The position numbers and the translations under genes were made by a program. This document shows, in pieces, positions 25,734-29,769 of a stretch of DNA of 40,238 nt (positions are counted from its first letter, which is position 1; every line of letters starts with the position of its first letter). The notes under the pieces are model-generated. The model did no database searches, was not told the origin of the DNA, and was given only the letters and a program-made list of their open reading frames with translations. Source of the DNA: Candidatus Nitrosopumilus sp. Lineage in GTDB: Archaea > Thermoproteota > Nitrososphaeria > Nitrososphaerales > Nitrosopumilaceae. Location: positions 1 through 40,238 of the forward strand of contig REGK01000003.1 of NCBI GenBank assembly GCA_003702545.1, in the 5' to 3' direction.

Positions 25734-27071
25734 CTAGTTCTTTGGAGGTTTTGCAAATTTGTTTTGAGGATTGTTGTGATAGTCCACTGGAAGCATTGCA
25801 TCTTTTTGTCTCCCAGTAAGGATTCCAACTACAGTATCATCTTTCTTTATTATTCCCTCATTCATCAATTTCTTAACTCCGACTACTGATGCGCCTGATG
25901 CCATCTCACAATCAAAACCGTTGAGACCAACCACTGACATTCCATCAAGCATTTCAGAGTCTGAAACAGTTGTTGCAACACCATTTGTAAATTCTAATGC
26001 ACGTAATCCTTTCAAAATATTTGCAGGCCTTCCAATTTGTATTGCAGTAGCTTTTGTCTTTGGTCTGATTCCTTTTGCATCTAAATCCTCATAGTATCTT
26101 GTAATTAGTTCCGTGTTGGGCTTTCCTTTGTTCCATCGAAGTTCTTCTCCTTGAAATTTACCATTGTACAAATCTGATAGTGTACTTGCACCTTCTGAAT
26201 TAATCACTGCAATTCTTGGAATTTTTTTAATCCAACCCCATTCGTACAATTCCATCAATGCTTTTCCACAGCTAGATGTGTTTCCTAATGCACCTCCTGG
26301 ATAAACAATCCAATCAGGGACTTCCCAATTCAAGTATTCTAATGCTCTAAAGGGAATTGTTTTTTGCCCTTCAATTCTAAATGGATTAATAGAGTTTACT
26401 GTGTAACCGTCATGATTCTGTGCATCATCTAATGATTGTTTTAGTGCATCATCAAAATTCCCATCAATTTCTAAAATCTGAGCTCCAAATTGATATGCTT
26501 GACTTAGTTTTCCGGGTGCAATTTGCCCTGCAGGTATGTAAACATCGCAGTCTATCCCCTCATTTGCTGCAAACATACCTGCTGATGCTGAAGTATTTCC
26601 AGTAGATGCACAAACAATCTTTTTTGCACCCACCATCTTTGCATGAGTTACTGCAGTTGCCATGCCGTTATCTTTGAAAGAGCCACTTGGATTGTATCCT
26701 TCGGGCTGTAACCATAAATTATCATTTGAAATTCCTACTAATTCTGAGGCCTTTGCCATATGGTATGGCTTTGAGAGTCTTCCTTCTGCACCATCAAGTG
26801 AAACCAAAAATTTTGAACACTCTTCAATGTTTTCAGGATCAACCTGACAAAAGTTTAGTAATTCTCTAAATCTCCAAACACCACTTTCGTTGAAGATGTT
26901 TCCTTGAGAGTTTCTTCTGTTGTAAAATACTTCTTTTAGACTTTCAGAGGGAGTGTGTTTGTATTTTACATCAAGTAAATGTCCTTTTTCACATTGAACA
27001 TTAGTACTCTCAATTGGATATTCCATCCCACATTGTGGATCAACACATTTGAGATATGCGTCTCCTTGCAT
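25734..27071 (-). CDS. thrC: Threonine synthase
   Basis: Threonine synthase turns O-phosphohomoserine into threonine with PLP. The 445-residue protein has an N-terminal extension with a zinc-ribbon-like Cys set (C9, C14, C27), then the PLP domain with K133 in NPSGSFKDNGM and the phosphate loop CASTGNTSASAGMFAANEG. Later come EGQKTIPFRALEYL and GILTGRQKDAMLP. It is the long form of the family. A threonine ammonia-lyase gene lies at 36877-38085, so both making and breaking threonine are in this window. Confidence 0.95.
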   Translation of the reverse strand: MQGDAYLKCVDPQCGMEYPIESTNVQCEKGHLLDVKYKHTPSESLKEVFYNRRNSQGNIFNESGVWRFRELLNFCQVDPENIEECSKFLVSLDGAEGRLSKPYHMAKASELVGISNDNLWLQPEGYNPSGSFKDNGMATAVTHAKMVGAKKIVCASTGNTSASAGMFAANEGIDCDVYIPAGQIAPGKLSQAYQFGAQILEIDGNFDDALKQSLDDAQNHDGYTVNSINPFRIEGQKTIPFRALEYLNWEVPDWIVYPGGALGNTSSCGKALMELYEWGWIKKIPRIAVINSEGASTLSDLYNGKFQGEELRWNKGKPNTELITRYYEDLDAKGIRPKTKATAIQIGRPANILKGLRALEFTNGVATTVSDSEMLDGMSVVGLNGFDCEMASGASVVGVKKLMNEGIIKKDDTVVGILTGRQKDAMLPVDYHNNPQNKFAKPPKN

Positions 27072-27173
27072 ACCCCTTACAAAAAATTATGATAATTTAA
27101 AGCAAAGGTGCAATTTTTCATAGTTGAAGCTATTTTTCCTAAACTTTAGATTAGATGCATTTGAGAATTAGTT

Positions 27174-27548
27174 GTGGTCACATACATCGAATATTTGAAA
27201 AGTATTCTATTGCAAATTCTTGAATCATATGAAAACCTCAAAGAGATTCAAGACAAACCAGGAGATCTAAATCTGATAAAAAAAGACCTACTCAAAATTA
27301 ATGGATTTTTCAAGGTGATTTCAAACAAAGTTGAAGATACAAAAATACCTCATTCAGATTTCAAACCATTAAAATCAAAATTTAGAAGTTATTTGGAGAA
27401 TTATTCTTTTGAACAAGAGATTGAGACCATGTCTCCACTTTATCAAGATGATATACATAGAGTCAAAAATATGCGATTAAAGATTTTAGAATCATTTGAT
27501 GAGAACAAAATCATGACAGACATCAAGGAGTTTATGGATAAGATTTGA
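27174..27548 (+). CDS. Helical protein of unknown function
   Basis: The 124-residue protein looks fully helical, with heptad-like stretches (YIEYLKSILLQILESYENLK; MRLKILESFDENKIMTDIKE) and no Cys, membrane segment or known motif. The start is GTG at 27174. A tiny Cys-rich gene begins inside its stop codon, so they are probably translated together. Function unknown. Confidence 0.55.
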   Translation: MVTYIEYLKSILLQILESYENLKEIQDKPGDLNLIKKDLLKINGFFKVISNKVEDTKIPHSDFKPLKSKFRSYLENYSFEQEIETMSPLYQDDIHRVKNMRLKILESFDENKIMTDIKEFMDKI

Positions 27549-27649
27549 GTGAAAAAAAATGCGTATTGTGTGGTTGCAAAGATCATAAATTGTTTGGATG
27601 CAATAGACACATGTCCAAAAAATGTAGTTGTTATAAAGAAGAAAATTAG
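27545..27649 (+). CDS. 34-residue Cys/His-rich protein, probable zinc binder
   Basis: The frame starts TTG AGT, overlapping the TGA of the preceding gene, and encodes MSEKKCVLCGCKDHKLFG followed by CNRHMSKKCSCYKEEN. Six Cys and two His in 34 residues, arranged as CxxCxC and CxxH with CxC at the end, suggest one or two small zinc sites. It ends 10 bases before the stop of a second tiny Cys-rich gene on the other strand. TTG as start follows from the overlap; no better start exists in frame. Confidence 0.55.
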   Translation: MSEKKCVLCGCKDHKLFGCNRHMSKKCSCYKEEN

Positions 27650-27659
27650 TTATTAGAAA

Positions 27660-27776
27660 TTATTTTCGTTTAGGTCCAGATCTTTCATGAAAATTTAGGC
27701 AACATCTGCATTCTTTTTCCAGACATTCAGATTCAGAATGATGGCCACAAATACCACATTCGCAACTTCCGGACAT
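27660..27776 (-). CDS. 38-residue Cys/His-rich protein, probable zinc binder
   Basis: Reading from the ATG at 27776, the protein begins MSGSCECGICGHHSESEC and continues LEKECRCCLNFHERSGPKRK. Seven Cys and three His appear, in CxCxxCxHH-type spacing. Its core resembles the 34-residue protein on the other strand (CxxCG, then an acidic or basic stretch, then CxC), so the two could be diverged copies of one family placed tail to tail. I cannot name a known family. Confidence 0.55.
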   Translation of the reverse strand: MSGSCECGICGHHSESECLEKECRCCLNFHERSGPKRK

Positions 27777-27844
27777 ATCATTTGTTATCTTGGATGGAAT
27801 ATAATTTATCCCCCAAATTTTTATGAGTTTGAGGTCAAATGAGA

Positions 27845-28162
27845 TTATTTTTTAGATTTTGATTTTTTCCCAGAAGGTTCTTTTCCTTCTAGTTCTTTCT
27901 CAATTTCTTCAGCTTTGCTATCTACTGCTTTGATAACTTCTTGAATTAGTCCATCAAGATCACTGTCTTCTACTTCAGGTTCTACAGTAGCAGCAATTTC
28001 ATTGATTGTGTTTGAAATTTCAGCACTAACGTCTTCAAAGCTCTCAGGATCTTCATATGTTGAATTGTAGAGGTTTTTGAGGTTGTTTACATGACCTACT
28101 ACTTGATCTGTTATGATAATCTTGTAATCTGTTCCATTTACATCGAATTCTTTTGAACTCAT
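27845..28162 (-). CDS. Acidic protein of unknown function
   Basis: The 105-residue protein has a short folded start (EFDVNGTDYKIIITDQVVGH) and an acidic helical middle, and ends in a Lys/Ser tail (SGKKSKSKK). This layout, an acidic body with a basic tail, is seen in nucleic-acid-associated proteins, but nothing identifies it. It lies downstream of the Pro/Glu-repeat gene on the same strand, with 56 bases between. Confidence 0.6.
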   Translation of the reverse strand: MSSKEFDVNGTDYKIIITDQVVGHVNNLKNLYNSTYEDPESFEDVSAEISNTINEIAATVEPEVEDSDLDGLIQEVIKAVDSKAEEIEKELEGKEPSGKKSKSKK

Positions 28163-28218: not shown

Positions 28219-28914
28219 TTAGAATACTATGTAATCTAATGCTGAAGCATCACTGATCAATCTGGTATGTTTTGAACCTACTACATACCCATTTTTGATA
28301 TCTTCTGCAGGGATCCACCTGTTTGTGGATGTATAGTGTCTTTTTTCTTGTAATTCCCTCTCAATTTCTTCAACATCAAATTCTCCTTCTTCAACCTCTT
28401 GTGTGGCAAGATGTTTTATGGTTACAAGAATTTTGGTAACTTTTACCCTGTCTCCAAACTTCCATTTCATTGGTGGGTGTTCGTCAGATACTTCTAACAC
28501 TTTGATTTTCATTTGTTTATTTCCAAACGCATCGTGACTAATCAGTGTCTTTTCATCTGTAAATTCTTCAAAAGTAATCCTAGAGTTTACCTCAGCATCA
28601 GATACTGTTTCTAATAATGCAGCTGAATTAAATTCTGTGTTTGATTTTTCATCATAACTTGTTTGAATAGTAATTTCTGGTAATTGTGATTCTTCTGGTT
28701 CAGGAGTTGGTTCTACAACTGGTTCAGGAGTTGGTTCTACAACTGGTTCAGGAGTTGGTTCTACAACTGGTTCAGGAGTTGGTTCTACAACTGGTTCAGG
28801 AGTTGGTTCTACAACTGGTTCAGGAGTTGGTTGTGGATTTTTTGCTTCTTGTAGTCTTTTTGCTTCTTTTTCCCATTGAAGTTGTGCTTCCTCATCCTTG
28901 TTTATTTCAGACAA
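28219..28914 (-). CDS. Protein with Pro-Thr-Pro-Glu repeat and C-terminal domain
   Basis: The 231-residue protein has a short acidic start (MSEINKDEEAQLQWEKEAKR), then repeats of PTPEPVVE (residues about 29-74), then a C-terminal region with folded character (FEEFTDEKTLISHDAFGNKQ, KWKFGDRVKVTKILVTIK, RLISDASALDYIVF). The repeat should form an extended spacer. There is no signal peptide or membrane segment. The start is TTG at 28914, 26 bases from the centre of a TATA-like TTTTTAAA, so a leaderless TTG is likely. Function unknown. Confidence 0.75.
   Translation of the reverse strand: MSEINKDEEAQLQWEKEAKRLQEAKNPQPTPEPVVEPTPEPVVEPTPEPVVEPTPEPVVEPTPEPVVEPTPEPEESQLPEITIQTSYDEKSNTEFNSAALLETVSDAEVNSRITFEEFTDEKTLISHDAFGNKQMKIKVLEVSDEHPPMKWKFGDRVKVTKILVTIKHLATQEVEEGEFDVEEIERELQEKRHYTSTNRWIPAEDIKNGYVVGSKHTRLISDASALDYIVF
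28697..28834. repeat. 24-base tandem repeat in the Pro/Glu protein gene
   Basis: Five full copies of a 24-base unit (begins GGTTCAGGAGTTGGTT on the plus strand) run from 28697 to 28816, followed by a partial sixth copy to about 28834. The full copies are identical at the DNA level, so the tract is young and probably changes length by slippage. Each unit adds exactly eight residues, keeping the frame. Confidence 0.9.
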
Positions 28915-28965: not shown

Positions 28966-28973
28966 TTAGGCAC
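28966..28973 (-). promoter_or_regulatory. GTGCCTAA intergenic motif, copy 5
   Basis: TTAGGCAC on the plus strand, GTGCCTAA then TTTC on the minus strand, just at the Hjc stop codon and 21 bases before the TATA-like box of the Pro/Glu-repeat gene. Confidence 0.35.
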
Positions 28974-29521
28974 TATTTGGGTTGTTTTGTTTTAAATGGC
29001 ATCTTACATTCTTCCAGATAGATCTCTTTTCGTGAACCATCTACTTTTGCGTAGATTTTTCCATCATAAGTACAAACACAGTCAGTAATGTCTAGATTTT
29101 CATCCCAAATTTTGTAAAACTCTCTTAATTCTCGACTTTCATATTTCCCTACACCCAATCTTTTCTTTGATAGGAATTTGAATGCCAACAATACGTGTCT
29201 TTTTTTGTAAATATCAAATGTCTTTATCCATTCCAAACATCTTTCAATTTGATCATATGGCACTGGAAGTGAAGTACTTGTTCCTGATTTTGCTTCAATA
29301 GTAAAAATAGCACTGTCTTCAGTGTTTACTGCTAAAACATCAGGTAATGCAATGCTTGGAGAACCTAATCTGAATGCCTTCCAATCCTGAGATGCATTGA
29401 ATCGTTTTACCAATGTATCTTCCCATTGATACCCACGCTGTCTCCGGGTTTTTGCTGCTTTTTGATTATTGGTTTTTGTTTTTTTGGATAATTTTGATAT
29501 AGCTACTGTTCTTGAGCGCAT
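28973..29521 (-). CDS. hjc: Holliday junction resolvase (Hjc family)
   Basis: From the ATG at 29521 the protein has 182 residues. It belongs to the archaeal resolvase nucleases that cut four-way junctions during recombination and fork repair. The PD-(D/E)XK site is complete: E34 (RGYQWEDTLVKRF), D61 in ALPDVLAV, and E76/K78 in FTIEAKSGTS. The start at 29521 is chosen because a TATA-like box (centre near 29545) lies 24 bases upstream; a longer frame begins at 29584. The C-terminal part (from about residue 110) is longer than in crenarchaeal Hjc. Confidence 0.85.
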   Translation of the reverse strand: MRSRTVAISKLSKKTKTNNQKAAKTRRQRGYQWEDTLVKRFNASQDWKAFRLGSPSIALPDVLAVNTEDSAIFTIEAKSGTSTSLPVPYDQIERCLEWIKTFDIYKKRHVLLAFKFLSKKRLGVGKYESRELREFYKIWDENLDITDCVCTYDGKIYAKVDGSRKEIYLEECKMPFKTKQPK

Positions 29522-29670
29522 ACTGTTATTCCTATTTTCAGATATAGTAAGGCGGGTAATTACATAATACCCGTTAAAATTCATTGAGTAGTTCGTTTCT
29601 TATTTGTGATATAGACAAAGTTTGAATAAATTTTGGTAAAATAATAATACTATTAGGAATAATCTGATTT

Positions 29671-29769
29671 GTGCCAAAAAAGAAAAAGGAGTTAAAACAA
29701 CGCAAAAATCTTCAATGTCATTGGCACTGTCCATGTGAAGATTGTAGAAATGATGATGCATCTTATTGA
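29671..29769 (+). CDS. 32-residue Cys/His-rich protein, probable zinc binder
   Basis: The GTG at 29671 starts MPKKKKELKQRKNLQCHWHC followed by PCEDCRNDDASY. A very basic start precedes a compact Cys/His cluster (CHWHCPCEDC), enough for one zinc site. A TATA-like TAATAATA is centred 25 bases upstream, predicting a leaderless GTG. It is divergent from hjc. The basic arm suggests nucleic-acid contact, but that is inferred. Confidence 0.5.
   Translation: MPKKKKELKQRKNLQCHWHCPCEDCRNDDASY

Follow-up and report, generated by a model that had tools for sequence, protein, structure and literature searches.

Two very small genes standing tail to tail in the 40,238-nt stretch of Candidatus Nitrosopumilus sp. 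analysed here (GenBank assembly GCA_003702545.1, contig REGK01000003.1; hereafter the window) are genuine genes under strong selection across ammonia-oxidising archaea. The plus-strand gene, which we call A, and the minus-strand gene, B, encode Cys/His-rich microproteins, and 10 bases separate their stop codons. An earlier note on this DNA, made from the sequence alone, had given both genes, and its coordinates, strands, lengths of 34 and 38 residues and stop spacing all agree with our gene models. The reading we prefer, with a probability of roughly 55%, is that A and B would be two unrelated, clade-restricted metal-binding microproteins, A serving as the coupled partner of an upstream gene, c4, and B as a compact two-metal interaction module.

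In searches with both peptides, which the earlier note had suggested, 55 of the 100 related genomes searched contained a same-frame homologue of B and 52 one of A (E ≤ 1e-3), well above what chance would give. Wherever both genes were present, they stood tail to tail (127/127 loci, compiled from two sources with partly overlapping genomes and comprising 81 different core sequences for A and 107 for B). Third codon positions vary most in both genes, and the ratio of nonsynonymous to synonymous polymorphism (pN/pS) comes to 0.19 in A and 0.14 in B, values that lean low because the underlying set was chosen by ligand pattern. Among hits taken without prior ligand selection, 127 of the 135 for A keep all eight ligands, and all 145 for B keep all nine. 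The eight exceptions for A comprise five divergent relatives, a single-residue deletion (L207), a C19Y substitution (L243) and a frameshift (L250); these last three were omitted from the alignment used for profile and fold work (A3). Unconserved frames and broken cysteine positions, the two outcomes that the earlier note had named as telling against its proposal, were thus both looked for, and we found the frames conserved and the ligands intact. That both open reading frames (ORFs) are spurious could be argued from their shortness and from the TTG start of A in the window, but we regard this as practically negligible given the homologues, the uniform tail-to-tail order, the 4-nt overlap of A with c4 and the TATA box of B, and the reading is refuted by the coding-type constraint seen in pN/pS. 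The earlier note had put both genes under the customary gene-calling thresholds; the minimum gene length of Prodigal is 90 nt, and both A (105 nt) and B (117 nt) are longer. One genome (G041) carries the A–B site on two contigs (L095 and L109) with identical proteins, probably owing to mixed strains in the bin.

Judged by sequence comparison, A and B are two separate, unrelated families at one site. The earlier note had described them as looking distantly alike and proposed a duplicated, inverted pair of a single zinc-binding family, a view encouraged by two tiny, adjacent products whose eight or nine Cys/His follow one another in much the same way (C C C H C H/C C C). However, a profile–profile comparison aligned only 6 columns at a probability of 1%, and the local A–B alignment score of 33 lies at shuffle level (shuffled mean 29.7, P = 0.28), with reversed A scoring 34. 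The distributions differ as well: G180 and G206 have A but no B (G180 is in 210 contigs, making the absence there less certain), and G128, G187, G273, G299 and G351 have B but no full-length A. B occurs alone in a Nitrosocaldus-like genome (L113) and in Nitrosotalea-like ones (L253, L258), directly upstream of and in the same direction as a threonine-synthase-like gene (c0), and L111 likewise has B without A beside that gene. Where c4 and A are missing, c0 lies directly downstream of B; in Nitrosopumilus and its nearer kin, c4 and A are situated between the two; A relatives of families f2 and f8 sit at other sites. The tail-to-tail order therefore reflects shared position rather than shared ancestry, and we reject inverted duplication, now a very improbable origin, on the profile comparison, the shuffle test, synteny and the separate distributions. 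The notion of A and B as a single functional pair is likewise weakened, since each is found without the other (A in G180 and G206, B without full A in Nitrosotalea- and Nitrosocaldus-type genomes). Of the proposed new zinc-binding family, what stands is that the invariant Cys/His are consistent with metal binding and match no family in the libraries searched; the number of families is two, not one. In three loci from other genera (L259:5125-5364, L274:1717-1953 and L272:1673-1993), A and B are separated by the gene for a protein of 78–106 aa that has a CxxCxP-type motif at its C-terminus, and the A–B gap is widened to ~240–260 nt.

A and c4 form a two-gene unit in which A comes second. In 105 of 128 loci, the stop codon of c4 and the start codon of A overlap by exactly 4 nt; the TTGA of the window is one such case, and across all 128 loci A starts with ATG in 115, TTG in 9 and GTG in 4. 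We found c4 in 31 of 51 genomes tested; every one of the 31 has full-length A, and the 20 genomes that lack full-length A have no c4. This co-occurrence does not amount to 51 independent observations because the genomes are related. Both genes are retained in G206, ~80 kb apart. No TATA box of its own was found for A; at the position of the c4 promoter-like box, TAGATT is present in nine of the ten listed loci, one of them GC-rich, by plain count. The c4 protein gave no trusted family match, and Spectrin_7, which matched 3 of 12 c4 members (best 3.5e-07), was set aside as a generic coiled-helix match. Divergent A-like proteins, encoded in the 2.7–3.2 Mb genomes of f8 and in the Nitrosocaldus-like f2, keep CxxCGCxxHxxxxCxxH, and c4 is absent with them. 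Near three divergent A-like genes (L122, L123 and L265), the opposite strand encodes a protein of ~200 aa that looks HD-domain-like when its sequence is read by eye.

B has a promoter of its own. Of 108 distinct regions upstream of B, 65.7% contain TTATAT between −36 and −18 relative to the start codon, compared with 2.1% on average after shuffling; the box is mostly at exactly −28 and is present even in regions of 57–65% GC. In archaea, a TATA spacing of −28 from the start codon fits a leaderless transcript, so B probably has its own, leaderless transcript. Besides its ligands, B keeps G8, I9, E17, E22, N28, F29, R32, S33 and G34 invariant, and the NFHxRSG tail is invariant in the main family; so many fixed non-ligand residues argue against a loose metal sponge. 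In one variant (L125), Cys replaces the ligand H12, as expected for a metal ligand. Paralogues of B occur elsewhere in the genomes (for example, G000:C33:22653-22739, 48% identity), and a B-like Cys module ends two-helix membrane proteins in relatives of 2.8–3.2 Mb belonging to f8 (L267:1734-2159 and L268:1855-2172), matches that are weak at E 2e-5 to 5e-5 in a small ORF set and 1.5e-4 and 9e-4 per genome, and that gave E 0.014 or no match with a narrower profile.

Both families appear undescribed, as the earlier note had supposed of its single one: neither A nor B matched any Pfam or NCBIfam profile, metallothionein profiles included (E up to 1), neither had a relative among PDB sequences, and a literature search for A/B genes or metallothioneins in ammonia-oxidising archaea found no paper. 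Scans of viral contigs returned no A or B relative and PHROGs no trusted match, and a viral origin was rejected on these grounds; a structured RNA at the site was likewise rejected, Rfam giving no match there. A search of 300 genomes from the phylum gave no A or B match outside the order at E ≤ 1e-3. AmoA (PF12942) was detected among the 100 relatives only in families f1, f2, f3 and f8 and in none of 13 other families, and A or B relatives occur in these same four (the names Nitrosocaldus-like for f2 and Nitrososphaeraceae-like for f8 are inferred). This restriction to AmoA-bearing families may reflect a link to ammonia oxidation and fits plain shared ancestry equally well. The assembly of the window itself (G000; 93.6% complete, 79 contigs) gave no AmoA match, despite AmoA in close relatives.

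In the arrangement that we favour, A is translationally coupled as the second gene of the c4-A unit and would probably fold around two zinc ions, one of them in a CCHC-knuckle-like loop (C6, C9, H14, C19). To the c4 protein it may be a small subunit or a regulator, perhaps one that lets c4 touch nucleic acid or another protein. B belongs to another family and has its own promoter; it would form a compact two-metal module, the metal probably being zinc, whose fixed C-terminal surface (NFHxRSG) may mediate contacts with proteins. Nitrososphaeraceae-like genomes carry a B-like module on a two-helix membrane anchor. The eight invariant Cys/His of A and the C3-H-C4 core of B are each enough for two four-ligand sites. 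AlphaFold2 modelled B with a mean predicted local distance difference test (pLDDT) score of 81.5 and helices at residues 15–20 and 24–33. Several results weigh against this reading. The AlphaFold2 model of A is poor (pLDDT 65.7), Foldseek found no PDB fold match for either model, and zf-CCHC of Pfam gave no match to 68 A sequences at E up to 10. The co-occurrence of c4 and A follows the tree, leaving fewer independent events than 51, and divergent A relatives keep the knuckle residues yet lose the CxC tail. Furthermore, small Cys motifs may hold zinc, another metal or none, which AlphaFold2 cannot distinguish (PMC11241148).

Comparison with characterized Cys-motif systems places A and B near several of them. 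The C(P)XCG zinc-finger micro-proteins of Haloferax volcanii (such as HVO_2753 and HVO_0758) are shorter than 70 aa and carry Cys motifs; zinc binding was seen for most of the proteins tested, and their functions are mostly unknown (PMC11241148, PMC10716476). A and B share this small size, but A has one CxxCG and B one or none, with CxC, CxCC and conserved His instead. The ligand order of B, C3-H-C4, is that of a RING finger; however, its ligands from C5 to C26 span 22 residues, whereas the RING cross-brace spacing takes ~40–60, and some 22 residues are far too short for it. The likeness of A to the CCHC zinc knuckle (zf-CCHC, PF00098) lies in its CX2CX4HX4C spacing and the Gly after the second Cys, and A differs in having four extra conserved Cys/His and no known nucleic-acid role. 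At the position before the ligand His, where the knuckle has Gly, A has Asp-His nearly throughout, with Gly-His only in some divergent relatives.

These resemblances underlie the remaining alternatives. The reading of A as an RNA-binding protein with a genuine CCHC zinc knuckle draws on the exact spacing, on the Gly that follows the second Cys in every intact sequence and on some relatives reading CGCRGH or CGCTGH, closer to the knuckle consensus; we nonetheless find it doubtful, given the lack of any zf-CCHC match and the further conserved C11, H22, C27 and C29, and with eight ligands in 24 residues the CCHC spacing is not a very improbable one. The main rival concerns B, and perhaps A too, as a metallothionein-like copper or zinc buffer or chaperone, a role that would suit copper-dependent ammonia oxidisers. 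Like metallothioneins, A and B are tiny, Cys-rich and endowed with CxC motifs; B is 18% Cys with CxC and CxCC motifs, the genomes with A or B all belong to AmoA-bearing families, and a membrane-fused B-like module exists. Unlike metallothioneins, both have two or more conserved His and match no metallothionein family, and the spacer residues of B are highly conserved; moreover, no copper gene was seen beside B, and the AmoA-bearing families are related, so their co-distribution may be ancestry. On balance, we consider a buffering or chaperone role unlikely.

The local features are collected in Table 1. Among the conserved neighbours of B, the PEPV-repeat N-terminus of c1 is present in the strain of the window and is shorter or absent in relatives, and the label of c0 as threonine-synthase-like was assigned by reading the sequence, its profile match being to PF00291. 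A third Cys/His mini-ORF lies at 29671-29769 on the plus strand of the window (32 aa, MPKKKKELKQRKNLQCHWHCPCEDCRNDDASY) and has conserved counterparts in only 3 of the 40 other genomes searched for it.

Table 1. Features around the A–B site (positions are those of the window)
Feature	Position	Strand	Description
c0	25734..27071	-	Pyridoxal phosphate (PLP)-dependent enzyme, threonine-synthase-like; PF00291
Promoter-like box TTTAGATT	27145..27152	+	~29 to 22 nt 5' of c4
c4	27174..27548	+	124 aa, probably helical, unknown family; first gene of the c4-A unit
TTGA overlap	27545..27548	+	A start codon overlaps c4 stop codon, 4 nt
A microprotein	27545..27649	+	34 aa, 105 nt, start TTG; ligands C6 C9 C11 H14 C19 H22 C27 C29; core CX2CX4HX4C
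B microprotein	27660..27776	-	38 aa, 117 nt, start ATG; ligands C5 C7 C10 H12 C18 C23 C25 C26 H30
TATA box TTATAT	27799..27804	-	-28 from B start codon
c3	27845..28162	-	105 aa; conserved neighbour, upstream of B, same direction
c1	28219..28914	-	Conserved neighbour; PEPV-repeat N-terminus, variable
c2	28973..29584	-	Hjc-like (Holliday junction resolvase); PF01870, 23.7 bits vs cut-off 21.1; conserved neighbour

Much of the nitrification in oceans and soils is the work of ammonia-oxidising archaea, many of whose conserved genes have no assigned function. A and B are two very small genes present in most genomes of the family around Nitrosopumilus, with handles for experiment in a coupled partner (c4), a promoter, fixed putative metal ligands and paralogues. 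They also offer a more general lesson, namely that tail-to-tail neighbours of similar composition need not be kin. Quite tentatively, A and c4 might form a two-part machine in which each part needs the other, and B, together with its paralogues and the forms tethered to the membrane, might have arisen with the ammonia-oxidising archaea as a module for handling metal or as an adaptor. On that tentative reading, A-c4 and B would be two signature families of this group that have so far gone undescribed.
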